A stretch of 64,000 bases of DNA, from NCBI GenBank assembly GCA_022592445.1, contig JABYQR010000115.1:53198-117197 (forward strand), read 5' to 3'. The notes under the pieces are model-generated. The model searched no databases, was not told the origin of the DNA, and saw only the letters and a list, made by a program, of their open reading frames with translations. The DNA is from Cytidiella melzeri. Its lineage: Eukaryota > Basidiomycota > Agaricomycetes > Polyporales > Irpicaceae. Every line of letters starts with the position of its first letter. The first letter of the stretch is position 1. Made by a program: the position numbers and the translations under genes. This document shows, piece by piece, positions 2,188-35,266 of this stretch.

Positions 2188-3225
2188 GAGATTAACGTCA
2201 AGTGCTCGCATCGTTTACGTAGGCGTCGTTTTTGCTTTTTTTGGGGATTTCACTACACTTAACAGCTTACCGCTGTGCACAGCACTCGCTGTGGGATGTC
2301 TGGAGAGCCTCCTGACAGCGAAGAGTCCCCTGAGGGGTCTTCTGGCTTTTGCTTGAATCGAGATGGTGGTGGTTCCCCCTCCATCTTCGTCTCATCCTAT
2401 CTGTTGCTCCTTTGATTCCCAGCATAAATCACTCTCTGCCTGCGACCATGTCAGGATCTGTTGAGGCTTCTCGATGTCTGAGACGCTTATCTCTTTCCAT
2501 GCCTTTGATTATATCTGTCGGTATTGACCGGGACCTCGGGCCTCAGGCTCCATCAAGTGAAGTGATGTATTTATTCTGTGAGACAGCAGGTGCCACTAAC
2601 CTTCGCAAAGAGCAGAAGACGTGTTCAGTTCAAAGTTGAGCATCGGTGCTCAGGACGGTACGTCTGAAATGTCATCGCGCAGTCGACAGCATACTTTCCA
2701 CGACCTTGAGAAGGATATTACTATCTGACGGAGACGAGATATGTTGCGAGGATTACCGTGACGACAACGATGATTCCCAGGATACACGCTAGGAGAGAAG
2801 CATCAAGCCTCAAGCGGTTTTGAGACCGTCAATGCGCCAGAATCCAGGATACAAACGTACGCTCGATATATAACCAACAATCACGGCGGGGAGATCATTC
2901 ACCTTATTCAGGACAGTAGCAGCGAATGTGTACGTGCATTGAGGTCCTTTTGGAATTGATTGGTCACGTCGTACTAGTAGCTGCCAGTGACCCGCAACCT
3001 CAAAAAAACAGATTCATATTATGTACCATTAGCTGAGTACATATAGCTCAGAGTGGCACCAGGCCGCCATTGAGTACAACAAGCGTAACCGTCCGTAGGC
3101 TCGTAGGGAGGTGTCGCAGTCACCAGCGCATAATACTAGTAGTACGGAACAAAGCATAGCGTGAGGGTGAAAATCGATGGACGAAAGAACAGTGCCCGTT
3201 CCAAGCTACAGTCGGACTTGTGAGT
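2188..3225. other. 3' flank of short FunK1 gene; no gene
   Basis: No convincing ORF. The part from about 2650 to 3180 resembles the 3' flank of the neighbouring FunK1 gene (5080-5500), including a block near 3131-3170 with tactagtagtacgg and aaagcatagc that recurs at 5413 and 9029. It is therefore a duplicated FunK1 downstream region. Confidence 0.55.
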
Positions 3226-4511: not shown

Positions 4512-4682
4512 GACGATGGCATGCTATGGTTTGAGTGAAAGAGGAGGGAGGAATCAGGGATGGCTGCGCTCACAGGCTATGAATTACCCACAACGTGCTC
4601 ACTAGTTTGCGCCAACTGCAGGAGATCACGAAAGCAGTCCTCGTTGTATTGCAATGGCCATGGAAATTTGAAAAGACAGCAG

Positions 4683-4705
4683 CTGCCTATTTAGGCAGAA
4701 GCTAA
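4683..4705 (-). promoter_or_regulatory. Shared FunK1 promoter module, locus 1
   Basis: The sense strand reads TTAGCTTCTGCCTAAATAGGCAG about 175 bp upstream of the ATG at 4511. The same CTAAATAGGCAG core with a following CTGTCTTTTCAA lies at the same distance upstream of the 782-aa gene and, with changes, of the third copy. The core is AT-rich and TATA-like, and its conservation across paralogues suggests the core promoter. Confidence 0.45.
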
Positions 4706-4899
4706 ACACCCACGTTGATCCGATTCGGCAGCAACCGAGTCTGTGGCCACACGTGGCAATGAGCCACCGCAATGTATTGCGAAATGTGAGGGCAGAGGAC
4801 CAAGGCCAACCTCTCAACGTCACGGTACGCACATATGCAAGATCACCTTTTAATCCTGATTCGATAGGTTGGTAGCACCCCACTGACTTACTCCGAGTC

Positions 4900-5513
4900 C
4901 TACCTAAGGCTACCTCAATGTAACGCCTTCACCAGGTCCCGATGCTCGACTCATTCCATTGCAGCTCGTCGACTGTGCATGTGCACTCTTCGCAGACTAT
5001 GGCCTTCTCTAGCTGTCGCAGCTGAGGGCGAGGCGTGTTGATCTTCGAGAGGCAGACCTTTGCGAGTGTAGACGGGCGTTCAGCCTGAGCCTTTGTGCCT
5101 CAGGTCTTTAGCCATGGCGACAAAGACTAGAATGCACGCTGCGAGTGGAGCATCAAGAGGCTCGGAGTTTTCTGATGCGCTCATCTCCAGAGTACAAGGT
5201 ACACTCGATGTATAGCGACTCGGAGTCACGGTCGAGGTTGACGTTACTCGAGACGGTAGCAGCAAATGTGCGGTGGTCACGCCATAGTAGCAGTGGTGTT
5301 CAGTAAGAGCAGGTTGAATTCTTGTACTAGTAGCACAGATAAATCACGTCGGCACCAGGCCGTCAACAAGTACATAGGATTGAAGTAGAGGTGTTGCGAT
5401 CACCAGCGTATAATACTAGTAGCACGGAATAAAGCATAGCATGAGGGTGAAAATGATGGGGGAGAGAAGAATACCCGTTACTGTATTGCAGGTAAGTAAT
5501 CTGATGTTGAAAA
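4900..5513. other. FunK1 intergenic region; no gene
   Basis: No supported ORF. It contains the 3' flank of the 782-aa gene, with tactagtagcacgg and aaagcatagc at 5413-5445, a block repeated downstream of all FunK1 copies and likely to hold the 3' UTR and polyadenylation region. Confidence 0.5.
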
Positions 5514-7965
5514 TTAGAAACCTTCGAACGTCGTCAACAGCTTCTCGTATGTGATCAAACCACCGGAGGTCTCAAACGTGTCGAACGAATTCTTGAGTTC
5601 CTCCGCGCTTTGTATCGGCACCGTTGCTGACATCATGGCGCTCATGTAGAAGGGTCCCTTGAAAGCCACAAGCCAAGAGCGTAGGTGCTCGAAGAGCGGA
5701 GAGAGGCGTAGGGCCATGGAATTTATATGTTTCCAGAGCAAGCCCAGCTTATTGTTAGCTATCTGCTTGTACGTTCCAAATTCCCAAGTAGCCAGCTCGG
5801 CGTTGCGAGCCTTTGCATAATCGTCGGGCGAATTGGGGTCCGCAATCTTGATAGCGCACCACAAGGTTACCCAAAAGACGGACTCGTAATCATGTTTGAC
5901 ACAGTGGATGACACGCTTGCACTGGCTGCCCATCGCCTCGGCGTTATGCATGTCCTCAACCAATTCAGTGGCCATGAAGGGTAAAGTTCCAGTCCGGTGG
6001 CGCGCCGTAGCTCCCTTGGGAAATCCATTCTCGTCCACGAATACCGCCAGATCGAAGTCGATGAGAATAAAGCGATCCTCTCCATTACGGTTCTGGTACA
6101 TTATGTTGCCTTCGCTGATGTCGCGATGCAAAATAAACCCCTTGTACCGTAAATCACGGATACCTGCAGAGTTCCAATTAGATCGTGACATGAATGGATA
6201 ACTAACATGCTTACAGGTGATGAGTTGCTTGGCCATCTCCATGAGAGAATCGGGAGCCTGCACAAGTTTCTCAGATAGAGGAGTGTATCGATCCATCACG
6301 AGGCAGCGAAGAACGCGGTCGTTGTCTGGGTCCGGAGCCGTGGCAAGCAGCTTGCGAATACCGCTCGACAGATGCCAGAGGTCCTTGGACTTCAGGAATT
6401 CAGGCACATGCTCAATACCAAGCTTGCGAGCATGCTCCACTATATCGTATTCAGAAGTCCGCTTGATGTATTGCTGAGACACCTTGACGATGACGCGACC
6501 ACCACCGGCCGCGGACGTAGTCCCTTCATAAATCGTCGTCCTTCGACCAACGAGAGCGTACTGAGAGTAGACATGTTTGCCAAGAGTGACAATGAAGGGC
6601 ACGTTCTTCTCCTTGTCCTCGTCCGTGGAGAGATCGATCGTATGCTCCTTCAGGCTCCTGATCGGAAAGGCGGAGGGGTGGGGCTTGGTTGTGGGTGGGG
6701 TAATAACGTGAGCGGGAATAGCGCCGAACTGTTCAGCATCACAGTAGGCGAGAGCGACGAAGATGGCTGCAACTCGTTCAAAGTCGGTAATGAGGGACAA
6801 CTTCTCCCTATTCACGCCCGCGTCGGGGCACGTACGGACGATACCAGAAGCGTCGAAGTACCAAAGCGAGATGAGTTCATCTCGGAAAATGACACCAATA
6901 TTGTGCATGCGTGTTCCACGCGTCGAGCCAAGCATTTCGAGCGCATATCCGCCAAGCTGAATCTCGGCGTCCGTAGTGGTAGAGCTCTTCCGGGATGGCC
7001 TGTCAGAAGATCCGCCAGATTGCGTAGCACCTTTAGTTTTCTTTGCCGGTCTCGCAGAGACCAATGCTTCCGAGCCACGAGAACGCTTGGAGCCAGTCGA
7101 CGCCGTCTCAGCCACCTCGGCGTTTGCCATCTCCTCGACCTCCTCGACCTCCTCAACGTTCTCAACCTCCGCAACCTCTGCAGCCTCCGCGACTTCCTCC
7201 GACTGGGTAGTAGTACAAGCAACCTAAAGCATGCGTCAGTAACGCGAACAAGTAGCGACAAGAAAGGACGCTGACCTCGGGTGAAGCACTGCATTTCTGC
7301 TGCTGTCGCTTGTGTCGCTCGACGTTGAGCTTCGGCTTGATTGGCCCGCTGTACTTCAGCTCCACGCACATCAAGGCCGCAGCCCATTCGACACCGTGCT
7401 TGCCGATACCCTTCGTGTGCTTCATCTCTCCTATACGAGAAGCGAGGATGTCTGGTTTACGTTTCGCCGCCAAGCTGTCCTGCTCTGCTAGCCTGCGCAT
7501 ATACTTCGGATCGTTTCTGTAGAATTGGATGTCGTCAATGGGCGGGCGGGAGGCGATGTCGTCCATGTGGAGCTCTTGAACCAGCTTGAGTACGCGCATG
7601 ATGATGTTGGAAAGTGGGACATATCGAGCCGTTTCGAGTGTTACCTCGCAGAAGGCGTCGAGCTCTTTGGCAATGACTTCGTCATCGAAGAAGGAGTTCT
7701 TCGTAATGAAGGCGACCCATCGATCCATCTTGTCGGCATCGACGCCACACACGGCGTGCAGCCAATTGGAGACAGAGACGTTCTCGGTAAACTTGGCCAT
7801 GTCCTCCTTCACCTGAGGGTCCACGCTTTCTTTCGTGTGGCTGGTAGAAACTGTACTGGAGTGGCTGGTGCGAGCTGGTGTCTGCGTCATACTGCTAAGA
7901 TCCTCAACGCGAGAGTGCCGCGGTTTACTAGGCGTGACGGGAGGGCCACTGTTGGGAGTAGGCAT
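5514..7965 (-). CDS. FunK1 family protein kinase (782 aa), arm 1
   Basis: Three exons, 7965-7276, 7223-6215 and 6163-5514, with introns of 52 and 51 bp; the second intron is a multiple of three without a stop, so it can be missed. It starts MPTPNSGPPVTPSKP. Residues 1-230 form a FunK1 N-terminal region, followed by an acidic Glu/Val run (about 240-262), a basic KRSRG/PAKKTK segment and a kinase domain. The domain has a lysine in VIVK (about 477), catalytic HRDISEGN (Asp about 581), DFD (Asp about 602) and RTGTLPFMA. FunK1 kinases are a fungal expansion of mostly unknown substrates. All catalytic residues are present, so it is probably active. Confidence 0.92.
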
Positions 7966-8127
7966 AGTGATGACACGTTGTGGTTGAGTGAGAGGTAGGA
8001 GGAGCGAGAGAGAGCCGCACTCACCAGTTATAAACAAGTCACAACGTGGCCGGTAATTTGCGGCGGCCACCGGAGATTGCGAAAGCAGACCTCGTTGCTG
8101 AACAATGGGGTTTTGGTTGAAAAGACA

Positions 8128-8158
8128 GCAACTGCCTATTTAGGAAGTAGCTAAACCC
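8128..8158 (-). promoter_or_regulatory. Shared FunK1 promoter module, locus 2
   Basis: About 170 bp upstream of the ATG at 7965 the sense strand has TTTAGCTACTTCCTAAATAG followed by GCAGTTGCTG. The same block and spacing occur at locus 1 (4683-4705), locus 3 (11090-11118) and both genes of the right arm. Confidence 0.45.
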
Positions 8159-8369
8159 ATGTGTTGATCCGAACGCCCGGCAGCAGCAATCTCACACTGG
8201 ATCTGTGGTCATGAAAACACGCGTCAAGATGGCAATGCCACGCACGCCCTCAACATGTACAGCACGCCAACGACATTTCAGCACCATACGACCTTGATAC
8301 GGGCCGAATCGATACACTCTGAGTCAGCATAAGGGTGGTCGGCTCTCGCAGGAAAGGGACGGAAGCAAT

Positions 8370-19294: not shown

Positions 19295-19983
19295 TGACAC
19301 GGAGACGGAGCTCGATGTGACAAACAGGGACACAAAGTGGAAAACGACAAGGAGGTGGTGGCAGGCGTAGAGCACAATGCTTTCACCAGCTATCAGACTT
19401 TCGTCAAGTTGCTAGCCCAGTAAAGACCAAGAGGTCGAGATGGGGGGCTAGGAGCGTACATGCAGCAGTATATATACACTTCAGGGACCTGCGCATAGAC
19501 CATGTCAAGGGCAGCCTCTGCAAGAAGCCGTGTGAACAAAGAACAATAGAACTACCTAAATGAGAACAATAGCTATTGTCTGGACTCTGCCTAGACCTCT
19601 ACTCGTGAGAGAATCTATCTAAAAGGAGACCAACTATTGTATTCCATTCTCACACCTATGAGAACATTCTTCCATAAAGAGAACAATGGGGAAAGAACAA
19701 AAGGAGTCCATGTGAGTGCTATCTATGATGTCAAACCCTAGCTATGGGCTGAGCCATGTGGTTGTAGCCATGTGGTCTTACATAAGCTAAGTCACATGCC
19801 AGTGTGACGTAGTAGCAAGTAACGGGATCATGTGGAGCATCTAATCCATGTGATATGGGCGCTTAATAGACGTGCAAGGGGTTTGTGCAAAGAGGATTGC
19901 AACTGGGTTGTAGCCCAAGGTTTTGAAGATAAAAACAAGAGGTAAATTGTGAAAAATAAGGGCTAGGCGGGCCATCCAGGACA
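19295..19983 (-). repeat. Solo LTR of Gypsy family B (689 bp)
   Basis: This is the reverse complement of a diverged family-B LTR, sharing its TATATATA box, the ATCTCGACCT start segment and both ends. It is flanked by the duplication CCCCC (19290-19294 and 19984-19988). No internal sequence remains, so the element was lost by LTR-LTR recombination. Confidence 0.9.
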
Positions 19984-20369: not shown

Positions 20370-21125
20370 TGTCATGGATGGCCTGACTAGCTTTTAATTT
20401 TCGCAATTTACCTCTTGTTTTTATCTGTAAAACTCCGGGCTACAACCTAGTTTCAATTCTCTCTGCATAAACTCCTTTGCACGTCTATTAAGCGCCCGTA
20501 TCACGTGGCTTAGACGCTCCACACGGTCACATTACTTGCTACTACGTCACACTGGCATGTGACTTAGCTTAAGTAAGACCACATGGCTACAGACACATGG
20601 CTCAGCCCATAGCTAGGGTTTGACGTCATAGATACCATCCACATGGGCTCCTTATTGTTCTTTCCCTATTGTTCTCTTTATGGAAGGATGTTCTCACAGG
20701 TGTGGGAATGGAATACAATAGTTGGTCTCCTTTTAGATAGATTCTCTCACGGGTAGAGTTCTTGGCAAGGTCTAGACAATAGCTATTGTTCTCCTTTAGG
20801 TAGTTCTTTTGTTCTTCGTTCACACGGCTTCTTGCAAAGCCTGCCCTCAACATGGTCTGTGCGCAGGTCCCTGAAGTCTATATATACTGCTGCATGTACG
20901 CTCCTAGCCCCCATCTCGACCTCTTGGTCTTTACTGGGCTAGGTAAGCAACCCCCTCTTGTACTACATAGCTGGTAGTCACAATACTAACTTGGTCTTTA
21001 CTGGGCTAGATATCTGTATAAGGTTTATAGCTGGTGAGAGCATTGTGCTATACGCCTGCCACCACCTCGTCGTCGTCTTTCACTCCGTGTCCCTAGTCGT
21101 TACGTCGAGCTCCGTCTCCGTGACA
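20370..21125 (+). repeat. 5' LTR of Gypsy B (756 bp)
   Basis: It runs from TGTCATGG to CCGTGACA. TATATATAC at 20879-20887 is followed 26 bp later by ATCTCGACCT (20913-20922), the predicted RNA start and the partner of the primer site. Confidence 0.96.
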
Positions 21126-21138
21126 TTAGGTCGAGATC
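21126..21138 (+). promoter_or_regulatory. Self-priming primer-binding site of B
   Basis: The sequence directly after the LTR is TTAGGTCGAGATC. AGGTCGAGAT (21128-21137) is the exact reverse complement of ATCTCGACCT at the predicted 5' end of the RNA (20913). It parallels family A. Confidence 0.7.
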
Positions 21139-21271
21139 GTTGTGAAAACCCTGGGTCCCCCATTCCCACCGTTTTAAAAAGTTTATTCCTGTTTGACGAG
21201 TACGTCTCCGGTCTTCTCATACCGTTGAGCTACACTTACGTCGTCCGTTTCTACCCCCTGCGCGTTGTCTA

Positions 21272-24200
21272 GTGCCTAAGGACACACGCCCCCGTTTTTC
21301 TAAGAACCTCCCTGCCACTGAGCCTCAGCTCAAGAGGTCTCTTCCACCATCTTTTTTCGACGCTCTCGCTGAAAAGCGCAAGAGTGGTCAACCTCATCGT
21401 TGGTCTGACAAGGACCTGGTCACTGTCGCGAAGTACGTGTCCAAGAAGCCGTGTCAAGAACACAACCAAACTCTTATGAAGAGCGAGGAAGTGACGACGG
21501 GGGAGGAACGACGAGCGAACTCGCGTGGACAATGACGACAGCGGTGATGATGATGAAAGGGGGAGAGACGACGACGAGGGAGCAGCTAACGATGAGCTAA
21601 AGACCAGGTTATATTAGTACTGTAAAGGACTAGGTACAAGGTGGACGTCACCTAAAGACCAGGAGGTAGAATCTGAGGTCTTGAGGAAGCTACAGAGTGG
21701 GTTTATATACATCTCAGACAAGGACCCCTGGTACCGGGTCTGTACTCCTAACACTGCCGTGGAAATGTATGGTGTGCTATGGTGCAATGTTCTACAATGT
21801 TCCAGCACCTTCTGTGATCATGTGACCAGTCTGTCACATGCACTTGATCACATGCAGTAGCCATGTACCATCGATAAGATAAGATAAGGAAATTGAGGAG
21901 GTAGGATAACGAAAATAAAAGGAAAAGAAAGGAAAAAGTGTGCATGGTCGTGACATTACCCCCCTCCTAAAGGCCTTTTCTCCGGAAGGCAGGAGTTGAG
22001 TCTTTTCCGTCATCCCACAATGATACGCGTCGTAGAGTTTCTGAAGGTAGTTTCTCAAAATTCTCGTTGATTGGTCGGAAATTCATCGCCAAGAATAGAG
22101 ATGCAGCGATTGGTCGTGGAGCTCCTGGGTGCCGTCTGTGGAAATCTTTAACGGCTTCATCAGCATGAGTGACGTTGGTTGCGGGTTCCCAGGAGTTTTC
22201 TGAATCTGGGTATCCTCTCCACTTGACGCGGTACTGAAACTCTCTCTTCCGTCCAAAGATCCTAGAATCAAGGATCTGTTCTACTTCGTACTCCTCTTCT
22301 TCGTCAACTACAATCGGATCCGGTTCAGGAAATTCCCGGTTAGGAACCAAACTTGCCGTTTTGGCCGGTCGTAGCCTATCTACATGGAACACGGGGTGTC
22401 GCTTGTCTCGAATGGTGAGTTTGACCCGATAATTCAGGTCCCCAATCTTTTCCAAGACTTCATAAGGACCATCTCGTTTCGGTGCTAGTTTTGCCACCGG
22501 CTGTTCCTTTGGATGCTTCTCGCGCTCCACGTAAACCTTATCACCGACTTTAAACTGCGGCGCCTTTGTAACTCCGTGATCATAGAATCGCTTCATGCGT
22601 TCTGCCGTGAGTTGTAGCGCAGCTTTGGCATCGTCCTGGGCTTCTCGGAGTGCTCAAAGACGCTCGTCTGCTGCAGGAACGTTTGATACCGGATTCAAAG
22701 GCACCTGGAACTCTGGTAGATACCCATAGATCAGTTCGAAGGGGGCCTTCCCGGTGGACGAGTGTACTCGGCTATTGAGCGCAAACTCCGCAATTGGCAA
22801 CCAGTCTACCCAGTCATCCTGTCGGAAGGAACAGAATACTCGGAGATATTGTTCTATCTCTTGGTTCATACGTTCTGTTTTACCGTCTGTCTGAGGGTGG
22901 TACGCAGTGGACATAGACGACTTTACTCCGAGTGCATCGTAGATAGCACGGAGAAACTTGGATGCGAATACCGATCCACGGTCTGAGATCATCTGACGAG
23001 GTACACCATGGAGTTGAAACACGTTTGCAATATAGTCCTGCACGTGTTCGGGAGTTTTCATGCTTTCTCGTGATGGATAGCAATGCACCTGCGCTGTTGT
23101 CCGATCAACTACAACCGTGATAGAATCGTATCCTTTACATGGCGGTAACTTGACAATGAAGTCCGTGGTAACGCTTTCCCATGGAGCATTGGGCGGATCT
23201 AATGGATTGAGTGGGCCACGTGGTGGTGCGGGGAATGTCTTGGTTCTTTGACAAGTATCACACGTGTCTACATAGTCATTGACAAAGCGTGTCATGCTGG
23301 GCCACCAGTAGTTCCGAGAGAGTAGTTCCAGCGTTTTGTACCTGCCCGGGTGTCCAGCGGCGGGTAAGTCGTGATGTCTCCGAACTAGTTCCTTTCGGAT
23401 TTCGTCATCTTTAGGAACATAAACTTTTCCCCGGAACAACAACAGTCCATTCTCGTTGTTCCACTCTTCGAGTCCCCGGCTAAGAAGGCGAGGTCCGAGT
23501 TTCTTGACTTTGGCAAGTGCTTCTGCCACCTCGGTTTCTCGAAGAGAACAGTCACGGATACGTTTCAACAAGTCTCTGTCTGGCTGTACACTAGCTTGCC
23601 CACGTTGCGAAGCGGCAGCTCGGAAAACTTCAGGCGCTAAGACTACTTGTGACAGATTGTCTTCTTCGTCTTTGACCTCGTGTTGGCCCAATCGTGACAT
23701 GGAATCCGACTTTCCCATAGATTTCCCGGGCTTTGGGATGATCTCAAAGTTGAAACGTGAGAGGAACAATGACCAACGCGCTTGACGACGTGTCAAGTTG
23801 CGAGCGGTCTTCCAATACTCGAGATTCTTGTGGTCAGAGAAAATAGGGAATTTCTCTGGTAGCCCTTCCAAATAATGACGCCAGTCTTCAAGGGCTCGTA
23901 CAATTGCCATAAGTTCTCGGTCGTAGATCTCATAGTTTCGTTGGTCTCAGTCATGCCTTCAGACCGATAGGCTACTGGGTGCCACGTGCCGTCTTCGGCT
24001 TGTTGTTCCAACACCCCTCCCATTGCATATCCGGATGCATCCGTTTCCAAACGTGTGGGTCTATCAAAACTCCACATTGCCAATACTGGTGCTTCCACGA
24101 ATCGTTGGCGGAGTTCATCGAACGCCGACTGTTCTTCAGGACCCCATTTCCAAGGGACCTTACCCGTGAGACGGTCTAGGGGTTTACATATCTTCCCAAA

Positions 24201-27200
24201 ATCCCTGATGAACCTTCGGTAAAAGTTTGCAAACCCACGGAATCGGCGGATGTCAGAGACGTTCTGCGGTACAGGCCATTCAGCCACTGCCTTTACTTTG
24301 ACAGGATCCATACGTAATGATTGTGGCCAATGATGACGCCAAGGTACTCCGTTTCTGATCTCTCAAACTCGCATTTCTCAGGTTTCAAGAATAGGTCATG
24401 TTGCCTGAGCCGTCTCAGAACTTCATGTACCACCTCGCGGTGCTCGGATATCTCCTTAGAATAGATAAGGATATCGTCTAAGTAGACTGTGACTTTGCCT
24501 TCGGCAATGAGGTCGGCAAAAATATCATTCATCATATTCTGGAATGTAGCCGGAGAGTTTGTTAGTCCGAAGAACATGACGGTCGGTTCGAAAAGTCCAC
24601 GGTTGGTTACAAACGCTGCCTTGTGTTCATCTCCTTCTTTGATGCGGACATTGTTATATCCCCATCTGACATCTAGTTTGGTGAAGAACCTAGCGCCTCG
24701 CAGTCTATCCATGAGTTCGGAGATCAACGGCAATGGATACCTGTTTTTGATAGTGACTTCGTTTAGCTTCCGGTAATCCTGCACTGGGCGTAACTTTCCA
24801 TCCTTTTTCTTGACAAAGAAGAAGGGTGATGCCATGGGGGACTTTGACGGTCGAATGTACCCTTTCTCTAAATTTTCTCGGATAAACTTGTCAAGCTCTT
24901 CTTGCTCGGGATGGGACAGTGGGTAAACTTTTGCATGGAATCCTTTTGCTTCCGGAATCAACTCAATTGCATGGTCATATGACTTGTGTTCTGGAAGCCG
25001 TTGAGATTCCGTTTCAGAGAAAATGTGAGCGTGTTGTCGATATTGCTCAGGTACCATCTCCTCAAAGGTTTTGACTGGTTTAACCCGGTTCTCAACCTCA
25101 GCTAGTTCACTAGAGTATGTGTATCCTGCTAGAGTGAACAGGCGTTCGCCTTCCTGTACCATAGGTGTCGGACGTGTGCGTACAATGCGTCGGGGAGTTC
25201 CTTTTCCACCGAGCTGAGTAGTGGCCTGTGCCTGTAACTTCGGCGATTCGGTCTCATCCAAACTTCCTGAACCTTCCGTGGTTTCCTCAATGTCTTCTTC
25301 GGCATCCTCCGTATCCACCGGCAAGTACGGGAGTTGTTCCACAACTTTCCGTAGTCCCGGAGTTCTCTTCCTACGTTTAGGCTCAGCCGTTCTCTTAGCT
25401 GCAACCTCCTTCGCCTCATCAACCCGTTGCCTGGGTTTACATGCATCAGGACATCCATCCATCCTGATGATGCCTTCGTACCAATCAATGGTGGGGTTAT
25501 GGTACCGCAACCAATCGATTCCTATAATTACGTCTTCGGGTCCAATATCAGTGACCGTGAAGATGGTCCTCTCCTCGTGGTCCCCTATCCTCATATTGAG
25601 AATGGCAACTTCGTCAATAGCCCCGTCTCGATTTGGGGTTCCGTCTATGTTGTACACCGGAATGGGTTGTTTCAACTTCCGGGTTCTGATACGATGCTCT
25701 CGAACAAACCGTTTATGAATGAATAGTGTCGAGGCTCCACTATCAATCATTGCTGCGACTTCTTTAGATCTCCGCACTCCTGAAACTGTGATGGGTACGT
25801 GAAAATGTTCCGATTCAGAACCAGTCTCTAATACATCAGACGCGAGTACGGAAAATCTATTGTTACATGGTATACGCGGGGCGCGTGCTTGCGCAGCTCG
25901 AATCACGGCCCGAATCAAAAACCCTCCTCAAGTCTCTTCTTGAGGTCGGCATTCTCCGCCTTCAACTTTTCCAGCTCTCCAAGTATTGCGTTTAGGGTTA
26001 CTTCTGATACCCCTGACGGAATTGGCTCTCCGGTTGCCTCCGGTTTCTTCCCTTCGGCTTTAGAGGTCGAGGCCTCTGCATTGGTAGCTGCTACACGTGG
26101 TCCACGAGGAGGTGGACGAGGGACTGCGGGTTTGGTACATGTGCGCGCAATATGATTGGGATCCGTTGTGAGTTCCTGGCAGTTATAACACCGCCGTCCT
26201 TGTTGCATCTTGGAGGCGTCAACCTCCATAGGAACCGGACCGTTGGAAGGACGGGGAGCCGGGGTAAACCTGGGCTGGGACTGGGTAGGTCTTGTCGTCG
26301 TCGACGAGGGAACAGACGGAATTTTCTTCTCCGTCGTTTCTCTGATGCGGGCATACGCAGCCGCCATTTTCAGAGACCTGTCAATCCAACCTTGGTAATT
26401 GGTCGGTGGAGCTTCAGCCGTTGCCAGTCGCCCATAGATGTATTCAGGGAGACCCTTTATGAACCGGATCTCCTTGTCCTTGTCGCTCAACCCATTGATG
26501 CGACCCACGTATGACTGAAAGTCAGTGACGTATGTGCCGACATCCCGCGCATTCTTTTCCTTCTTCTCAGCTCCACAGAGCTTCTCCAGTTCACGAATAG
26601 CCGTATCTTCGGGCGTTGCATCGCCGAAGTACTTCTTGAGCTCCGTCTTAAACTTGGCCCATGTATCGAGGTTGGCCGGCAAACTACCGTTGTGGTCAGC
26701 CATATGGTCCGTGACCGGTATTGCCCATTGGGCGGCCTTTTCTGACAACCGGTAGATTGCTGTCAGGACCTTGGTTCTTTCATCGGCAATACTGGCGGTT
26801 ACCCAGTAAGCCTCGCATTGTGACAAGAACCGTTCTAAGTCACGGCCATGTTCGCCCTTGTATCTATCGGGCTTGGTGTCGTTATTGTTGACCGTGACTT
26901 GCGGTCTTGGCATTGCTTGTGTAACTGCAGCTACAATGGCTGCAATCAAGGCAGGATCGACTGCGGGTGTTGTCATCGTGACAGGTGCGGAATTGATGGG
27001 GACGACGGTGGGCGCTTCAGGAGTTACCGGTGGGATTTCCGGTATGGTTTCGGGAATGATGGGAACAGGGGTAGCAGTGGTGGTTTCCGGTGAAACTGCT
27101 GTGACTAAACTGGTATCAAGTTCTGGAACTTCGACTTCTCCCGGAACTTGAACAATTAACGATATTTGACTGTTATCGCAGGCTACGTATCCACGGTATC

Positions 27201-29255
27201 GTTGTCCTTCTCTGAAATGACGGGATACTACAAACTTTTGATTTCGATTTGGACACGGTTGTTGTTCGCAGATTTCAATATACGCGTGGTCCTCTTCGTT
27301 ATCGTGACAATCCTGAAGATGTCGGGATCGAAGACGTGGAAACGGTTATCGCACTCAATGATTGCTGTCTACTACAAAGGAAGTTTCTCAAAGTATCCTC
27401 CGTCCGCTACAAAAGCAACTCGACTCGTAACCTCCGTCAACCTCTTGCGCAATTGCGTGAAGTTGATCTGCCCTACTGACTGTAAGCCCCAGTTCAGTGC
27501 CTTGAGCTGGGCAGGTGTGCGTGTGGAGAGTACTTCCTCCGTGTGTTCGACGAGGTGCAGAAGTTTATCGTTGAGGAGTAGAACTGCCTGGGTCTGTGAA
27601 TCGTTCCGGTCGCGAGTGAGTTCGATCAGGATCTTGAGGCGTCTGGTAGTGGCCTCGATCTTCGGCTTGAGGATGCCGACTTGGTCCTTGATTGAAAACT
27701 TGTGGAAATCGAGCGTCACAGGTTTTTGTGCGTCTGGGCGAGGTGGCGGGGGTGCTTGGGAGACACGGTCCTTGAGAGACGGTTTCTTACTTCGCTCCGC
27801 GAGGGTTTGCGCGCGTTCTGTGCGTGCACGTTCCTTGATGGACTCGTTGTCGCGAGCAAACTTTTCGTGGTCGAAGGCAGGAAGCCTGGTGCCCAGGGGG
27901 TGATAGTGAGGGCGGCGTGAGACGTAGGATACGATCGCTTCAAGATCCTTTTCTGTGTAGAGACGAGGACGTCCTTGTTCGCGTAGTTCTCGACGAGCCT
28001 CAAAGAAGGACTCGGGTATGCGGCGACGAATGCGTACGTCCTTGGGCACTATAACCACGAAGTGAGATGTAGGATCAAAGGTTCGGGCCAGTACAACGTA
28101 CTGGTAAACCGGGGGGACTAAACTTTTATAAACTTTGGGGAAAGGGAATTTATGCGGTTGCGCGACGTCCAGGCGAGCGTACGGAGATTCTACCTAATGT
28201 CAAGAACACAACCAAACTCTTATGAAGAGCGAGGAAGTGACGACGGGGGAGGAACGACGAGCGAACTCGCGTGGACGATGACGACAGGGGTGATGATGAT
28301 GAAAGGGGGAGAGACGACGACGAGGGAGCAGCTAACGATGAGCTAAAGACCAGGTTATATTAGTACTGTAAAGGACTAGGTACAAGGTGGACGTCACCTA
28401 AAGACCAGGAGGTAGAATCTGAGGTCTTTAGGGAGCTACAGAGTGGGTTTATATACATCTCAGACAAGGACCCCTGGTACCGGGTCTGTACTCCTAACAC
28501 TGCCGTGGGAATGTATGGTGTGCTATGGTGCGATGTTCTACAATGTTCCAGCACCTTCTATGATCATGTGACCAGTCTGTCACATGCACTTGATCACATG
28601 CAGTAGCCATGTACCATCGATAAGATAAGATAAGGAAATTGAGAAGGTAGGATAACGAAAATAAAAGGAAAAGAAAGGAAAAAGTGTGCATGGTCGTGAC
28701 AAGCCGCCTGTCAAAGGCATCACCCTCACCGTCCCCTCTTACGAGGAAAACCGACAACTTCGCGCCTCCGCACGAGCATACAGAGAACGAGCTGCTGAGG
28801 AGCGTGACCGCACCTTAGCTGAGCAACAGACCCACAAGCTCACCTTTGCAGAACGACTAGCAAAGCTCCCTGCACCAACTCCCGCCCCCGCTGCACCAAA
28901 GCCGGTGTTGATCGACTTCAAGAAGTTGTCACCGGTTGATCTTGTAGGCATCTTCAAGCCAAAACTTACCGCCGTCCGCACTCGCTTGCAAGCTCTCACA
29001 GAGCTTGAAGAACTCCTGAACCGCGCCAACCCCGACCACCGTCGCGCCCTGCTCCACCTCGTCAACAAGGTCAATCGTTTCCTCAACCGAGTCGACGATC
29101 TTGCACCCATCACAGCAGACCGCGAGTGGCAGCTCCTAGACTGGGGTTGCAAAGCAATTGGGAAGGTTTCTTTCAAGCAGCTTCGTAAAAACTACGATAG
29201 AGTTCTAGCACAACTTAACGTAGTCAATAACGATAGCTACTTCGAGTGGATCTAG
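21272..29255 (+). CDS. Gypsy B ORF1, methionine-free, interrupted by element A
   Basis: The ORF consists of 21272-21451 and 28707-29255 once element A and one copy of its AGCCG duplication are removed: 729 nt, 242 aa, open throughout. It begins VPKDTRPRFS and has no methionine. Shared with ORF1 of family A are VPKD, the LP..SFF.A segment, KPV.(L/I)DF.K.S, VGI.KPK and the DWG..(A/S)(I/V)G C-terminal motif. The leader from the RNA start to gag has no ATG in any frame. Role unknown. Confidence 0.72.
21452..21955 (-). repeat. 3' LTR of Gypsy A (504 bp)
   Basis: TGTCA to TGACA, including a triple GATAAG array (21873-21888), a TATATAA box and the R-start segment. Confidence 0.96.
21967..25918 (-). 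pseudogene. Gypsy A pol, broken
   Basis: Encodes protease (IDSGASTLFIH), reverse transcriptase (QDYRKLNEVT, YLDDILIYS), RNase H (ETDASGYAMGG), integrase (HHDLPAAGH, CDTCQRTK, TTDFIV, SDRGSVFAS, KTERMNQEIE) and a C-terminal chromodomain (EQILDSR, VKWRGY, NSWEP). Two frameshifts (about 24305 and about 23945) and an in-frame TGA at 22654-22656 in DERL-stop-ALREAQ break it. CGA to TGA by C-to-T change would explain the stop. Read through from gag by a -1 shift at 25918-25924. Confidence 0.92.
25915..26976 (-). CDS. Gypsy A gag (353 aa)
   Basis: Starts MTTPAVDPAL at 26976, the first ATG after the predicted RNA start. The capsid region (about 30-220) includes YWVTASIADERTK and FRFIKGLPEYI-like helices. 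A zinc-knuckle variant CYNCQELTTDPNHIARTC follows, then a Lys/Glu coiled coil at the C-terminus (LGELEKLKAENADLKKRLEE). It ends GGT TTT TGA, which overlaps a slippery heptamer. The frame is open upstream of the ATG for about 100 codons. Confidence 0.9.
   Translation of the reverse strand: MTTPAVDPALIAAIVAAVTQAMPRPQVTVNNNDTKPDRYKGEHGRDLERFLSQCEAYWVTASIADERTKVLTAIYRLSEKAAQWAIPVTDHMADHNGSLPANLDTWAKFKTELKKYFGDATPEDTAIRELEKLCGAEKKEKNARDVGTYVTDFQSYVGRINGLSDKDKEIRFIKGLPEYIYGRLATAEAPPTNYQGWIDRSLKMAAAYARIRETTEKKIPSVPSSTTTRPTQSQPRFTPAPRPSNGPVPMEVDASKMQQGRRCYNCQELTTDPNHIARTCTKPAVPRPPPRGPRVAATNAEASTSKAEGKKPEATGEPIPSGVSEVTLNAILGELEKLKAENADLKKRLEEGF
25918..25924 (-). promoter_or_regulatory. Probable -1 ribosomal frameshift site gag/pol
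   Basis: The sense strand reads G GGT TTT then TGA. In gag frame this is a perfect X XXY YYZ heptamer (GGG TTT T), and the gag stop is the next codon. Slipping back one base gives GGG TTT TTG ATT, which enters the protease-containing pol frame. Confidence 0.65.
26977..27371 (-). other. Probably coding stretch between ORF1 and gag of A
   Basis: From about 27310 to the gag ATG the gag frame is open (QDCHDNEEDHAY, ICEQQPCPNR, GYVACDN, then a Pro/Thr/Glu linker). Next to ORF1 are tandem stops TAG TAG, as in A2. A one-base deletion near 27320 relative to A2 puts ORF1 and gag out of frame in this copy. Confidence 0.55.
27372..28058 (-). CDS. Gypsy A ORF1, methionine-free leader protein
   Basis: 228 codons open from the GTG of VPKD-type start (VIVPKDVRIRRR) to TAG TAG; not one methionine codon. 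The frame is actually open further upstream (VYQYVVLARTFDPTSHF) without an ATG. Motifs: RPRLYTEKDLEAIVSYVSRR, proline-rich PPPPRPDAQ, KPVTLDFHKFS, VGILKPK, LKALNWGLQSVGQ. High charge and predicted helices suggest a nucleic-acid binding or structural role, but no known domain was recognised. Confidence 0.72.
   Translation of the reverse strand: MVIVPKDVRIRRRIPESFFEARRELREQGRPRLYTEKDLEAIVSYVSRRPHYHPLGTRLPAFDHEKFARDNESIKERARTERAQTLAERSKKPSLKDRVSQAPPPPRPDAQKPVTLDFHKFSIKDQVGILKPKIEATTRRLKILIELTRDRNDSQTQAVLLLNDKLLHLVEHTEEVLSTRTPAQLKALNWGLQSVGQINFTQLRKRLTEVTSRVAFVADGGYFEKLPL
28185..28197 (-). promoter_or_regulatory. Self-priming primer-binding site of A
   Basis: AGGTAGAATCT next to the 5' LTR is the reverse complement of AGATTCTACCT in the LTR (sense, 28420-28410), which lies about 28 bp past the TATATAA box. 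Confidence 0.72.
28198..28701 (-). repeat. 5' LTR of Gypsy A (504 bp)
   Basis: TGTCA to TGACA. Includes a triple GATAAG array at 28619-28634, a TATA box near 28448-28456 and a predicted RNA start at about 28420; no ATG between that start and gag on the sense strand. Confidence 0.96.
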
Positions 29256-29325
29256 ACAGTCCACAGTTTTCACCACGTCTTGTAAATAATTGTATACATT
29301 TCTACGCCTCATCACAGCACAAGAC

Positions 29326-30528
29326 ATGGACCAGAATCAACAGCCCGCTGCCCCTGCTGCTCCAGCTGCCCCAGTTGCCAATCTGAGCCAGCAAGACGTC
29401 CTAAATATGTTGGGCGTCCTGTCACAAAGGATGATTGACCTCACCAATCAAGTGGCTGCCTTGGCAGCTGTTCAGGCACCAGCCGTCGCCGCGGCCACGC
29501 ACACGTCCCGAGAACGGAGTATTGTCGAGAAGCCCGTCTCTTTTAAAGGAAAAACATCGTCGGAAGCAAGACTTTTCCGACATGCTTTCATTGTCTGGGC
29601 TCAGAACCAGGGCAAAGCGTTTTTCCAACAGGACGCGCAAGGCCAGGTCCGAGTGGACAACAATGGCGCGAGGATCTTTGATCCTCACAAGCTCATCACC
29701 AGTGCTCTGTCGTTCATGCAAGACGACGCCGCCGACTGGGCTCGCCCTCATATTGAGGAGCTAGCAAACAGCGAACCAGCTTTTGGCAACAGCTGGGACA
29801 CCTTCATCGAGGCTTTCAAAGCCAAATTCGAACCCATTGACGCTGTCATGGAGGCAAAGACAAAGATTGCCAACATGAAGCAGGGTAATAAAACCTTCGC
29901 CGCTCATATCTCGGAGTTTGAGACTTGGGCCCCTCGCACTGGCTGGAGCCAGCAGGACCTCTTCGATCGCCTCAAGTCAAGCTTGAGCACCGAGTACTTG
30001 CAGCGTGTCTCGTACTTCCAAACTCGCGCAGCCACGTACGACGCACTCAAAGATCAGTGCAAGGCGGTCGATGCCCAGCTTGCCGACCTCCGCAATAGCA
30101 CAGGCAAGGTTATGGTGGACAGTTCGTCGGGACACGGCAAGTCCCACCAACAAGCGTTCCGCGATCCCAACGCTATGGAGATCGACGCCTCTCGCTTCTC
30201 CGCCTCGTTTGACGCCCTCTTTGCTGGACTAGGAAAGCAGGAGATCTTCCAGAAATGGAAGAAAGAGATGAGCAAGCGCTGCTCGGTTTGTGGTTTGGAG
30301 AATCACAAGAAGAGGGATTCAAAGCACCCAGACGACCCGGTCTGCAACCATTGTGGTGGTACCGGTCATTGGGGGGCAGTTTGCCTGAAGCGACTCCAAG
30401 GCGTCCCTAAGGGACAAAAAGTTGCTGCTACCTCGTCGACCTCGTCGACTACTACCCCGGCGAAGCAAGACGCGTCCAATGACAAGGATGCTAAGATTGC
30501 GGCACTCAAGGACATGCTTGACATATAA
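29326..30528 (+). CDS. Gypsy B gag (400 aa)
   Basis: Starts MDQNQQPAAP; its ATG is the first ATG of the predicted RNA. A capsid-like helical region lies at about 70-260. Two zinc-knuckle-like motifs sit near the C-terminus, CSVCGLENHKK and a canonical CNHCGGTGHWGAVC. It is stopped by TAA at 30526, but the frame continues with coiled-coil-like sequence to TTT TGA at about 30573, where pol opens in the -1 frame. The TAA therefore looks like a recent nonsense change removing about 15 residues and the frameshift site. Confidence 0.9.
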   Translation: MDQNQQPAAPAAPAAPVANLSQQDVLNMLGVLSQRMIDLTNQVAALAAVQAPAVAAATHTSRERSIVEKPVSFKGKTSSEARLFRHAFIVWAQNQGKAFFQQDAQGQVRVDNNGARIFDPHKLITSALSFMQDDAADWARPHIEELANSEPAFGNSWDTFIEAFKAKFEPIDAVMEAKTKIANMKQGNKTFAAHISEFETWAPRTGWSQQDLFDRLKSSLSTEYLQRVSYFQTRAATYDALKDQCKAVDAQLADLRNSTGKVMVDSSSGHGKSHQQAFRDPNAMEIDASRFSASFDALFAGLGKQEIFQKWKKEMSKRCSVCGLENHKKRDSKHPDDPVCNHCGGTGHWGAVCLKRLQGVPKGQKVAATSSTSSTTTPAKQDASNDKDAKIAALKDMLDI

Positions 30529-30572
30529 AAGAAGCAAATGGATGAGATGGCAGCCAAAATCAATGCGGTTTT

Positions 30573-33500
30573 TTGAAGCAGACTTGTGACACAGCCGCAG
30601 CTGGGAGTCCCCCAGATACCCTATCCTTGCCTCCTTCGTCGTCCTCGTCTTCTGCCTCGTCTTCCTCGTGCACAACGTCTACTCCATGCCCATCGTCTAC
30701 TATCTCCTCATGTACTATATCGTCGCTAGATCGGTTATCATCTCATTTCCGTGTACATGTACTAGTTAAAGGTTTGAATAGAAGCATTCGCGTTCCTGCA
30801 ATGATTGATTCGGGAGCTACGGCTTTATTCATCAGTCACCAGTTCGTCAAGAAGCATAAGATTATTCAGCACCCGCTCAAAAGGGTTATCTCATTGCATA
30901 ACATTGACGGAACTAAGAATAAATCTGGCGGATTAACGCACTTCGTTCGCCTTACACTCACAGTCGGAGATCACACGGAAAAGGCAGAGTTTCTCGTCAC
31001 GGACTTAGGTCCAGAAGACGTCATTCTTGGGCTACCATGGCTCAAGTGCGTAAACCCTACCGTTAACTGGGAAAAAGGAGAAATGACAATTCCGAGCGGC
31101 TCGGAAGAATCTCCTAATGAACCTTTCCAGAAAGTTGACAGTAACCGCAAAGAACATAGACAGTGGGTCAAAGCCGGTATTATCCAAGACACCACTGACG
31201 AAGTCTGGTGTATGGCCGGCTTCACCTACTCTACCAAGCTTGCTGCCGAAGCAAACGAAGCTAAAGCTCAGCGCTCCTTCGAAGACATTGTTCCATCAGA
31301 GTATCACCGACATGCTAAAGTCTTCTCTGAGGAAGAGTCTAATCGGCTACCCCAGCATCAGCCCTGGGACCATTCGATTGATCTCAAACCAGACGCTCCT
31401 GAGACTATCAAATCGAAAGTTTATCCTATGCCCCTGAATGAACAAGCCGAGCTTGACAAATTCATCCAGGAGAACCTAGCAAAAGGTTACATCACGCCTT
31501 CTAAGTCTCCGATGGCTTCTCCAGTCTTCTTCATCAAAAAGAAGGATAACAAACTCCGACTTATTCAGGACTATCGAAAACTCAACGACATCACTGTGAA
31601 GAACCGCTACCCTCTACCGCTTGCCACCGACATCATCAACAAGCTCAAGGGTGCAAAGATCTTCACCAAATTCGATGTTCGTTGGGGATATCACAATGTC
31701 CGCATCAAAGAAGGAGACGAGTACAAAGCGGCTTTCGTTACCAACCGAGGACTCTTCGAACCTAAAGTCATGTTCTTCGGTCTCACGAACTCACCCGCTA
31801 CCTTCCAAGCTCTGATGGACAACATCTTCGCCGACCTCGTGGCCGAGGGCAAGGTGGCTGTCTATCTAGATGACATCTTGATCTGGAGTAACAACCTGAC
31901 AGAGCACCGCAAGGTTGTTCATGAAGTCCTCGAGCGACTTCAGCAGCACGATCTGTATCTTCGTCCGGAAAAGTGCGAGTTTGAGAAATCTGAGATCGAG
32001 TACCTTGGATTGATCATTCGCGCCGGCGAAGTAGCTATGGACCCTGTCAAAGTCCTAGCAGTTTCTACGTGGCCCACACCCAAGAACCTCAAAGAAGTCA
32101 GAGGATTCATCGGGTTTGCCAACTTCTACCGCCGCTTCATTCAAGACTTCTCAAAGCACGCACGGCCTCTACACGACCTGACTAAAAGGATGTACCGTTC
32201 GTCTGGGGTCCAGCACAAGAGACTGCCTTCACGATGCTAAGGAAGGCCTTTACCACTAAGCCTATCTTGGCAGTCTGGGACCCTGAACTCCCTACACGTC
32301 TAGAAGTCGATGCCTCGGGCTATGCGACCGGTGGAATCATCTCCCAGAAATCGAAGGAAGATGGATTCTACCACCCTATCGCCTACCGGTCCGCCTCTAT
32401 GACTGAAGCAGAGCGTAACTACGAAATCTTTGATCGGGAGATGTTAGCCATCACCAAGCTCTCAAAGATTGGCGCCACTACCTTGAGGGGCTCAAGGAAC
32501 CATTTGAGATCTGGACAGATCACGCAAACTTGCAGTACTGGAAAACTGCGCAACACCTCACTCGACGTCAAGCACGTTGGTCATTACTTTTGGCTGACTT
32601 CGACTTCGTGTTGGTACACAAGCCCGGTAGTACCATGATACACGCTGATCCTCTCTCTCGTCTTCACTCACATGCTGTCACGGACGAAGAAGACAACAAG
32701 GATCAGGTGGTACTGAAACCGGAACATTTCCGCATCCTTGCTACCAGTGCGCTTGCCACTGCTTCTCCGCTCGAATCAAAGATCCGAGAATGCACGGAAC
32801 AAGAAGCAGAAGTCGTGCAAGCTCTCGCTACCCTTCGAAAGAAGGGTCCTCGCAAACTTGTCGGCGGTTTACTCGAATGGGAAGAGAGTGACGGGCTCAT
32901 CTATTACAAGGGAAAACTCTACATCCCTAACAACAAAGAGCTCCGTCACGAAATCGTCAAATCTTGCCATGACGCACCCACGGCTGGTCATCCGGGCAAA
33001 CACGGCACCATAGAGCTAGTCTCACGACACTATTGGTGGCCGAAGATGAATGCCTTTGTAGAGACTTACGTACTAGGCTGTGATCGCTGTCAGCGTTACA
33101 AGTCAGCTCCACATCCTAAAGCAGTACTACAGCCTCAGGAAACTCCGGCCGGACCTTGGGAACACATCGGTGTAGATCTCATCACTCAGCTGCCACCCTC
33201 TAAGGGATTTGATTCGATCGCGGTCTACGTTGACCACTACTCCGATCAAACGCACATCATCCCTACTACCACTAGGGTTAACGCTGAGGGGATTGCCGAT
33301 CTACACTACAAAGAAGTATTCCGACTTCACGGCATTCCCAAGAAGGTGTTCTCTGACCGAGGACCCCAGTTTGCAGCGCGCTTCATGCGTGCGCTCTATC
33401 ACCGCCTGGGCATAGAGACTGGTTTTACGACCGCCTATCATCCGCAAGGAAATGGCAAAGTTGAACGCAAAAACCAGGATATCGAACAGTATCTGCGTCT

Positions 33501-34345
33501 ATTCTGTCAGCAACGACAAGACGACTGGGTCAATCATCTACCGGCGGCTGAGTTCCCAAACACCGTTTGAAGTCATCTATGGATATCGCCCCGACTTCAC
33601 TATACCAGTTGGCAAGCGAAGCAATATCCCTTCACTCGATGAGCGCCTTGATAATATGGCTCGAGTACGCAAGGAGACCGAAGCAGCTCTTCGTCTAAGC
33701 AAGGAAAAGATGAAGCAACTCTACGAGTCTGAGAAACGCTCTCCACGTGTCTTCCAAGTAGGGGACATGGTCTGGCTGAACGCTAAGAACGTCCAGATCC
33801 ATCAGGCTACCCCTAAACTCGGTCCTCGACAACTCGGCCCATACAAGGTCATCGAACGTATCGGTGAACTTGACTACAAACTCGATCTACCCAGCTATCT
33901 CCGAATCCACCCCGTCTTCCACATCAACCACCTAAGTCCCTGGCACGACAACGGCAAAGACGTACCTCCACCTCCTGATCCTATTGTCATAGAAGGAGAA
34001 GAACAGTACGTCGTCGAAAAAGTGCTAGACAGCAGGCTACACGGACGTTGGAAGAAATTGCAATTCCTTGTCAAATGGGAAGGGTATTCAGACGGACACA
34101 ATAGCTGGGAACCAGTAGAAAACCTCGAGAATAGTCAAGAAGCAATTGACGACTTCTACAAAGCAAACCCCGGAGCGCCCCGGGTCATCAAAGCTTCACT
34201 CTTCGCGGATCTCCGCTCGCACTTTCGGGAATTCAATACCCAGACCGACCCCGCTTTCCTTCGCACGATCTATCCATCTACATACGATCTTAGCTGGGAT
34301 GAAGGCAAACACATCGGTCTGGATATCTCAAGAACATCACACTGA
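30573..34345 (+). pseudogene. Gypsy B pol with frameshifts
   Basis: The -1 frame relative to gag encodes an aspartic protease (IDSGATALFIS), reverse transcriptase (QDYRKLNDIT, catalytic YLDDILIWS), RNase H (EVDASGYATGG), integrase with an HHCC zinc region and DDE residues (VDLIT, SDRGPQFA, KVERKNQDIE), a GPY-like module (LGPYKVIERIG) and a C-terminal chromodomain (EKVLDSR, LVKWEGY, NSWEP). Breaks occur near 32190 and 32455 and within AAEF/TPFEV near 33560. Catalytic motifs themselves are intact. The chromodomain normally targets integration to heterochromatin. Confidence 0.92.
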
Positions 34346-34493
34346 CGGGTAACGTCGAGTCAACGACACCAGAAGGGGAGAAACTTCCTAGCATCCTTCT
34401 GACTAGACAATCGGGGCAATTCTGCTGAATCCCTGTAGACGGGTAGAAGACCTCTATCACCACAGCACAGTGATGCTTCGCGAGGACGCTCGA

Positions 34494-34510
34494 TTTTAGG
34501 AGGGGGGTAA
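34494..34510 (+). promoter_or_regulatory. Polypurine tract of Gypsy B
   Basis: TTTTAGGAGGGGGGTAA lies directly before the 3' LTR. Family A has nearly the same tract next to its 3' LTR (21956-21975, minus strand). Confidence 0.8.
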
Positions 34511-35266
34511 TGTCATGGATGGCCTGACTAGCCCTTAATTTTCGCAATTTACCTCTTGTTTTTATCTGTAAAACTCCGGGCTACAACCTAGTTTCAATTC
34601 TCTCTGCATAAACTCCTTTGCACGTCTATTAAGCGCCCGTACCACGTGGCTTAGACGCTCCACACGGTCACATTACTTGCTACTACGTCACACTGGCATG
34701 TGACTTAGCTTAAGTAAGACCACATGGCTACAGACACATGGCTCAGCCCATAGCTAGGGTTTGACGTCATAGATACCATCCACATGGGCTCCTTATTGTT
34801 CTTTCCCTATTGTTCTCTTTATGGAAGGATGTTCTCACAGGTGTGGGAATGGAATACAATAGTTGGTCTCCTTTTAGATAGATTCTCTCACGGGTAGAGT
34901 TCTTGGCAAGGTCTAGACAATAGCTATTGTTCTCCTTTAGGTAGTTCTTTTGTTCTTCGTTCACACGGCTTCTTGCAAAGCCTGCCCTCAACATGGTCTG
35001 TGCGCAGGTCCCTGAAGTCTATATATACTGCTGCATGTACGCTCCTAGCCCCCATCTCGACCTCTTGGTCTTTACTGGGCTAGGTAAGCAACCCCCTCTT
35101 GTACTACATAGCTGGTAGTCACAATACTAACTTGGTCTTTACTGGGCTAGATATCTGTATAAGGTTTATAGCTGGTGAGAGCATTGTGCTATACGCCTGC
35201 CACCACCTCGTCGTCGTCTTCCACTCCGTGTCCCTAGTCGTTACGTCGAGCTCCGTCTCCGTGACA
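34511..35266 (+). repeat. 3' LTR of Gypsy B (756 bp)
   Basis: Four single-base differences from the 5' LTR; followed by the GTCTA duplication. Confidence 0.96.

Follow-up and report, generated by a model that had tools for sequence, protein, structure and literature searches.

AUG-free coding leaders and a proposed splicing-dependent start codon in two families of Ty3/gypsy retrotransposons of the polypore fungus Cytidiella melzeri

AUG-free coding leaders that are crossed by scanning ribosomes are described for rice tungro bacilliform virus (RTBV) and the badnaviruses (Caulimoviridae). The RTBV leader is about 900 nucleotides (nt) long, and on the same RNA open reading frame (ORF) I starts at AUU and ORF II starts at an AUG in moderate context (PMC5902531). 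The long terminal repeat (LTR) retrotransposon Cer1 of C. elegans produces CERV from a spliced mRNA; CERV is required for the export of the unspliced RNA, from which Gag-Pol is produced (PMC10309623). The copia-type element BARE1 of barley has a spliced Gag RNA where splicing cuts off pol and favours Gag (PMC3735527). The present work concerns two families of Ty3/gypsy retrotransposons, A and B, in a stretch of 64,000 nt of Cytidiella melzeri DNA (contig JABYQR010000115.1, positions 53,198 to 117,197; the window). Both families have an ORF, named ORF1, between the 5' LTR and gag. Element A spans 28701-21452 on the minus strand and is inserted within ORF1 of element B, which spans 20370-35266 on the plus strand.

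The A and B leaders are similar to those of RTBV and the badnaviruses in being long, coding and AUG-free before the main ORF. They differ from RTBV in that the first ORF would acquire a good AUG, and only upon splicing, and in that the elements are fungal LTR retrotransposons with a leader of ~1.1-1.4 kb. Both families resemble Cer1 in that an extra protein would be made from spliced element RNA, for which B provides genomic evidence; unlike in Cer1, ORF1 precedes gag and its AUG would be assembled by splicing. Splicing of retrotransposon RNA would decide which protein is made, as in BARE1, whereas splicing in A and B should turn gag off, unlike in BARE1. Both families also share features with Tf1 and the sushi chromoviruses, which are the self-priming by an 11-nt RNA 5' end in A, the chromodomain, and a Tf2-1-like SH3 domain after the integrase. 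Self-priming by the RNA 5' end is known from Tf1, and Tf1 is not known to carry a spliced-start ORF upstream of gag.

An earlier reading of this DNA, made from the sequence only, knew of no description of such a design. That statement does not hold in its general form, since AUG-free coding leaders are described for RTBV and the badnaviruses. The combination of an AUG-free coding leader and a first ORF that is switched on by splicing of its own start codon was not found in a search of open-licence papers. The A and B families would unite two known ideas, the AUG-free coding leader and the protein from spliced retroelement RNA.

The probable start-codon intron and the ORF1 protein

The A copies were sampled as 50 loci among 151 matches together with the copy A2 of the window (n = 51), and the B copies as 30 loci among the matches of a separate search, which also numbered 151. 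These loci are the best matches, and young copies are therefore over-represented. Both families exhibit the same layout at the start of ORF1, A/GTACGT...AG/TGCCYAAG (slashes denote exon-intron boundaries), where removal of the intron gives AUG-CCN-AAG. The split start is ACCA/GTACGT…ATAG/TGCCCAAG in A (28101-28049, minus strand) and ACGA/GTACGT…CTAG/TGCCTAAG in B (21200-21272, plus strand). The start codon after intron removal is ACC-AUG-CCC in A and ACG-AUG-CCU in B, and each family has an A at -3. The donor A/GT and the acceptor TAG/TG are present in 51/51 A copies and the longer donor GTACGT in 50/51. The B intron is 70, 74, and 74 nt long in three of the 26 intron-bearing loci where both splice sites are kept, which indicates that the reading frame is not kept within the intron.

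The genome, which measures 49.7 Mb, was scanned for both forms of the start. The intron-bearing pattern that fits A and B was identified at 307 places and its reversed-pattern control at 0. The spliced junction of B, TTTGACGATGCCTAAGGAC, was identified at seven places (four exact, two with one mismatch, and one with two mismatches), also with a reversed-pattern control of 0. Five of these seven junctions can be assigned to a B element by their distance of exactly 184 nt upstream of the start of the match to B ORF1, and the corresponding distance in the intron-bearing copy C1 is 257 nt (184 + 73). Two of these five, L048 and L054, were read, and in both the sequence between TGTTTGACGA and TGCCTAAGGACA is shorter by exactly 73 nt. 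Their sole leader ATG is the newly joined one, and the ORF1 AUG in B exists solely at the spliced junction. The junction of both loci exhibits no microhomology, which makes slippage a poor explanation. The start-codon intron of B is thus exactly removed in genomic copies, as splicing would remove it, and the simplest reading of the intron-less copies is that they are reverse-transcribed spliced RNA. In a comparison of 28 B loci, L054 is closest to L053, which retains the intron and differs from it at 2/723 ORF1 nt. L048 and L054 differ from each other at 35 ORF1 nt, and three other B junctions carry a different ORF1 allele, AAAGAC. The intron of B was therefore probably lost more than once.

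Relative to the protein, the A intron is located where the B intron is, and its splice sites are conserved. These two features argue strongly that the same start-codon intron works in A. No separate upstream exon with an AUG was found for ORF1; the AUG itself is split A/TG. The sequence-only reading had offered either a non-AUG start or a spliced start for ORF1. The spliced start is better supported by the split AUG and the intron-less B copies, and the non-AUG start is not needed, although one might be used in addition to the spliced AUG.

ORF1 is a conserved protein under purifying selection, and its conservation had already been noticed from the sequence. It has 225 codons in A, instead of the 228 given earlier, and 242 codons in B as given earlier, with the spliced AUG counted in both. 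The proportions of nonsynonymous (pN) and synonymous (pS) differences among 43 distinct A sequences are 0.027 and 0.324, and the median ratio of nonsynonymous to synonymous change (dN/dS) is 0.064, which excludes a value near 1. The first 780 nt of gag (25 sequences) have a dN/dS of 0.036. The variable sites of A ORF1 over the 51 copies fall on 147/224 third codon positions and 37/224 second positions. ORF1 is full length in 45/48 A copies, and the B ORF1 past the intron has 241 codons in 28/28 loci.

The identity to A ORF1 is 32-33% for the four aligned B proteins, 56% for P0001, and 50% for P0002, and P0003, an ORF1 relative from a profile search, exhibits 44%. P0001 shares the start of ORF1 as well as its LPL end. 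The similarity between the A and B proteins starts at the splice junction, where both read MPKD; P0001, P0002, and P0003 begin with MPK or MPA, where the gene caller possibly read GTG as M. ORF1 has no Pfam domain above the cut-off (best E 0.16). Our best guess is that ORF1 may be an early regulatory or RNA-handling protein similar to CERV of Cer1.

The Cytidiella melzeri protein P0004 is a truncated B ORF1 that runs into other, non-ORF1 sequence. Its residues 7-188, part of the non-ORF1 sequence among them, have a 99% match at G000:C726:38380-38925, which points to C. melzeri or a close species as the host.

Depletion of AUG in the leader

The predicted RNA start defines the 5' end of the leader. 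In 49/51 A copies, the 11 nt that begin at 28420 are exactly complementary to the sequence directly behind the 5' LTR, and in 24/28 B copies the 10 nt from 20913 are exactly complementary to the primer-binding site (PBS). The control, in which the target stretch of each copy was shuffled once, gave 0. This complementarity in both families supports the RNA start that the sequence-only reading had used. Five to eight ATGs are present in the 245 nt upstream of the RNA start in each of the 51 A copies, which shows that the depletion of ATG begins at the RNA start.

The leader of element A (28420-26977, minus strand, 1444 nt) has 0 ATG up to the gag ATG at 26976, as had been claimed, and the minus strand is ATG-free from 28458, next to the TATA box, down to this gag ATG. 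The ATG-free B leader of 1158 nt, previously obtained with element A removed, was seen in the uninterrupted copy L034. The earlier expectation of about 22 ATGs for A is too high. Dinucleotide shuffles give 9.3 for the A leader and 6.8 for the B leader, and zero ATGs were reached in 0/500 shuffles of A and 1/500 shuffles of B. The gag-pol of both elements does not exhibit ATG depletion.

Leader ATGs were counted in 73 copies. Four A copies were left out, three with an unmapped gag start (L012, L017, and L023) and one with a rearranged leader of 2.2 kb (L029), which leaves 47. Four B copies were also left out, two with an incomplete or interrupted leader (L031 and L045) and the two intron-less ones (L048 and L054), which leaves 26. 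ATG-free leaders are present in 30/47 A copies and 18/26 B copies. Leader ATGs do occur across the copies, and they occur only as rare variants. A2, for example, has two leader ATGs, both out of the ORF1 frame and each one transition away from element A, as had been reported.

The strongest evidence for AUG depletion is the frequency spectrum of the ATG sites over the copies. The A leaders have 22 ATG sites, each in at most three copies, and the B leaders have 10, each in one copy. The sites of 19 other triplets are present in at least four copies in 695/1106 cases in A and 459/699 in B. The ratio of rare to common sites is thus 22/0 for ATG and 411/695 for the other triplets in A (Fisher P 5e-10), and 10/0 and 240/459 in B (P 3e-5). 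With the sites found in at least half of the copies set aside, P becomes 8e-6 in A and 0.007 in B; the copies share ancestry and the sites overlap, and all these P values are therefore only guides.

The depletion was also evaluated in parts of the leader, in six copies each, and is weaker within ORF1 alone. ORF1 of A gives P of 0.009-0.021 under gag codon usage and 0.21-0.41 when its own codons are permuted. ORF1 of B alone has no internal ATG, with P of 0.006-0.010 under the codon usage of A gag and 0.02-0.11 when its own codons are permuted. The region adjoining gag in A is depleted with P of at most 0.04. There is selection against AUG in the leader, the ORF1 codons included, and the selection that had been proposed from the sequence is borne out by leader ATG sites that are only rare variants over the copies.

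The proposed switch and its alternatives

The explanation that we regard as very probable combines the ORF1 AUG split A/TG, the AUG-free leader, and splicing that sets ORF1 against Gag-Pol. ORF1 would be an extra gene between the 5' LTR and gag in both families, and its AUG would be split A/TG by a short spliceosomal intron. On the unspliced RNA no AUG would be met from the 5' end to gag, and scanning ribosomes would initiate at gag. On the spliced RNA the ORF1 AUG would come first, ORF1 would be made, and gag would be largely silenced, as an ORF of 225-242 codons would prevent efficient initiation at the downstream gag. The spliced share of the RNA would thereby set the balance of ORF1 and Gag-Pol. 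An upstream AUG would block gag, and selection would purge AUGs from the whole leader. The phase of the intron fits this proposal. Since such introns have G as their first base, an AT/G split would leave an ATG in the unspliced RNA; the A/TG split reads AGT and AGTG when unspliced and the AUG is hidden. We infer that gag is reached by scanning and that splicing acts as the switch.

One RNA could by this means encode two alternative proteins by a simple route, a start codon hidden by the intron phase A/TG. The cost would be a partly coding leader that is kept AUG-free, which is visible across the 73 counted copies. The genomic signature, an AUG-free leader with A/GT...AG/TG, offers a way to seek other elements with hidden proteins. 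The system would also be a ready reporter test of how the level of splicing relates to the balance of accessory protein and Gag in a retroelement.

The stretch from the ORF1 stop to the gag ATG, about 400 nt in A, is also AUG-free and conserved. The gag frame is open from directly behind the stop in 39/48 A copies, and this count rises to 42 if three copies with an early ORF1 stop are counted by open length; element A itself has a 1-nt deletion in its own copy (26977-27368). The spacer lies in two different frames relative to ORF1 among the copies, and its indels in the listed parts of the alignment are mostly in threes. Its dN/dS is 0.15 in the 5' part and 0.39 in the 3' part. The spacer of A has the appearance of an N-terminal Gag extension that lacks an AUG. 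Its start has GCAATCATTGAG in 41/48 copies, where AUU, flanked by A at -3 and by G at +4, could serve as a start codon.

An early/late form of the switch can be suggested only tentatively, and we consider it rather doubtful. Splicing would assemble the AUG of a regulator similar to Rev or CERV, the regulator would free the unspliced RNA from the nucleus, and the AUG would then be gone and the leader would feed gag. In A, an N-terminally extended Gag would also be made from the conserved non-AUG codon (AUC AUU G) just past the ORF1 stop.

Several observations weigh against a switch by splicing of the split AUG. Leader ATGs are present in 17/47 A copies and 8/26 B copies, where 18 of these 25 have a single ATG. 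No intron-less A copy was found in the genome, where the A junction pattern gave two hits with two mismatches each, equal to the count of its reversed control. The intron-less B places are few, seven against the 307 intron-bearing places of A and B together, although the patterns are unequally strict. The intron-less L048 and L054 also retain the R segment, which resembles a second intron (GT...TACTAAY...AG). The interior of the A intron has a divergence of 0.074, lower than the 0.237 at fourfold sites of ORF1, although it evolves at about the same pace as the other noncoding leader. The B copy L037 has lost the G of the acceptor, and a leader ATG is thereby exposed. The splice model also leaves the translation of the conserved AUG-free frame of A unexplained. 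Finally, permutation of the own codons of A ORF1 in six copies gave no significant ATG depletion (P 0.21-0.41).

The last of these is the evidence for a reading where the depletion is a mere by-product of composition or of the amino-acid make-up of ORF1, as 0 ATGs were obtained in 21-41% of the permutation trials. The depletion is nevertheless found in the whole-leader shuffles, in the region next to gag, and in the spectrum of ATG sites, and the gag-pol of the same elements is not depleted, so that this reading is hardly credible. A start of ORF1 on the unspliced RNA at a non-AUG codon, for instance the GUG of ATA GUG CCC (28049-28047), followed by leaky scanning to gag in the manner of RTBV with its AUU, would have that precedent and the AUG-free leader in its favour. 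In both families a GTG in the frame of ORF1 coincides exactly with the start of the protein, and the ORF1 frame in A is open upstream through the intron. However, the GTG is a by-product of the AG/TG acceptor, and the conserved A/GTACGT donor, the intron-less copies, and the frame-breaking intron lengths in B are left unexplained. We consider such a start very unlikely.

Two further alternatives also involve splicing. The intron might be removed from nearly all mRNA, with gag reached by reinitiation, shunting or stop-codon readthrough, where an AUG-free ORF1 would help the ribosomes that miss its AUG. This is consistent with gag being in the frame of ORF1 in 37/48 A copies, with a B spacer that is in frame and open in 19/28 loci, and with purifying selection on the intervening region of A. 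It is unlikely in view of the 307 intron-bearing and seven intron-less places, which indicate that unspliced RNA is normally the form that is copied. The frame relation of ORF1 and gag also fails to hold in entire groups of A and B copies, and skipping of the ORF1 AUG should be rare with A at -3 in both families. In A, a second intron TT/GTAGTAG...TTTCAG/A could instead hold the ORF1 stop TAGTAG, and its splicing would fuse ORF1 to Gag. The frame would be kept across the join for any segment length, and a G precedes the stop in all copies that reach the normal ORF1 end (45/48). The junction was not found in the genome, with one hit of two mismatches where the reversed control gave 3 + 1, and most copies have the segment open in the gag frame, with a conserved protein sequence (dN/dS 0.15). 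Such a fusion has very little to recommend it.

Structure of the two elements and other features of the window

The coordinates of the features are shown in Table 1. Element A is flanked by the target duplication CGGCT (28702-28706 and 21447-21451). It acquires an aspartyl protease, RVT_1, RNase H, Integrase_H2C2 with rve, and SH3_Tf2-1 with Chromo, which is the gypsy order with a chromodomain. The 3' LTR of element B (34511-35266) is identical to its 5' LTR at 752/756 positions, and its target duplication is GTCTA. The last piece of element B, the piece that was tested for domains, acquires SH3_Tf2-1 and Chromo. Both families, whose host is a polypore fungus, are self-priming Ty3/gypsy retrotransposons with a chromodomain and are Tf1-like in these features. 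Just before element B, at 19443-19880, lies an inverted segment with 88-93% similarity to part of the B LTR.

Table 1. Features of elements A and B in the window. Positions are those of the window.
Feature	Position	Strand	Remarks
Element A 5' LTR	28198..28701	minus	504 nt, TGTCACG...TTGACA
Element A predicted RNA 5' end / self-primer AGATTCTACCT	28410..28420	minus	complementary to PBS, 49/51 A copies
Element A intron-like R segment	28343..28397	minus	GTGACG...TACTAAT...TTTAG, 55 nt; missing in 6 A copies
Element A primer-binding site AGGTAGAATCT	28185..28195	minus	
Element A start-codon intron	28049..28101	minus	GTACGT...TTATAG, 53 nt; AUG split: A 28102, TG 28048-28047
Element A ORF1 exon 2 (TG + 224 codons + TAG)	27372..28048	minus	MPKDVRIRRR...DGGYFEKLPL, 225 aa
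Element A AUG-free region in gag frame, candidate Gag N-terminal extension	26977..27368	minus	open frame, indels mostly threes
Element A gag, first ATG through stop	25915..26976	minus	Retrotrans_gag PF03732 match
Element A 3' LTR	21452..21955	minus	504 nt; 496/504 identical to 5' LTR
Element B 5' LTR	20370..21125	plus	756 nt
Element B predicted RNA 5' end / self-primer ATCTCGACCT	20913..20922	plus	complementarity in 24/28 B copies
Element B intron-like R segment	20943..21009	plus	GTAAGC...TACTAAC...GGGCTAG, 67 nt; missing in 5 B loci
Element B primer-binding site AGGTCGAGAT	21128..21137	plus	
Element B start-codon intron	21200..21272	plus	GTACGT...GTCTAG, 73 nt; AUG split: A 21199, TG 21273-21274
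Element B ORF1 exon 2 before A insertion (TG + 59 codons)	21273..21451	plus	
Element B ORF1 exon 2 after A insertion (182 codons + TAG)	28707..29255	plus	
Element B gag ATG	29326..29328	plus	earliest ATG past RNA start, inserted element A excluded

Both sides of the self-priming pairs (28420-28410 with 28195-28185, minus strand; 20913-20922 with 21128-21137, plus strand) differ between A and B and the complementarity is kept. The R segments of both families are flanked by direct repeats, which are at least 11 bp around the A segment, and deletion of the segments by slippage is therefore possible.

Two other sets of repeats were observed in the window. Three direct repeats at 3364, 5649, and 9231 are ~80% alike and are perhaps a tandem gene family. 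A large inverted duplication is formed by 2229-8369 and 53111-59257, about 45 kb apart, where most arms are 97-100% complementary and one is 90% complementary.
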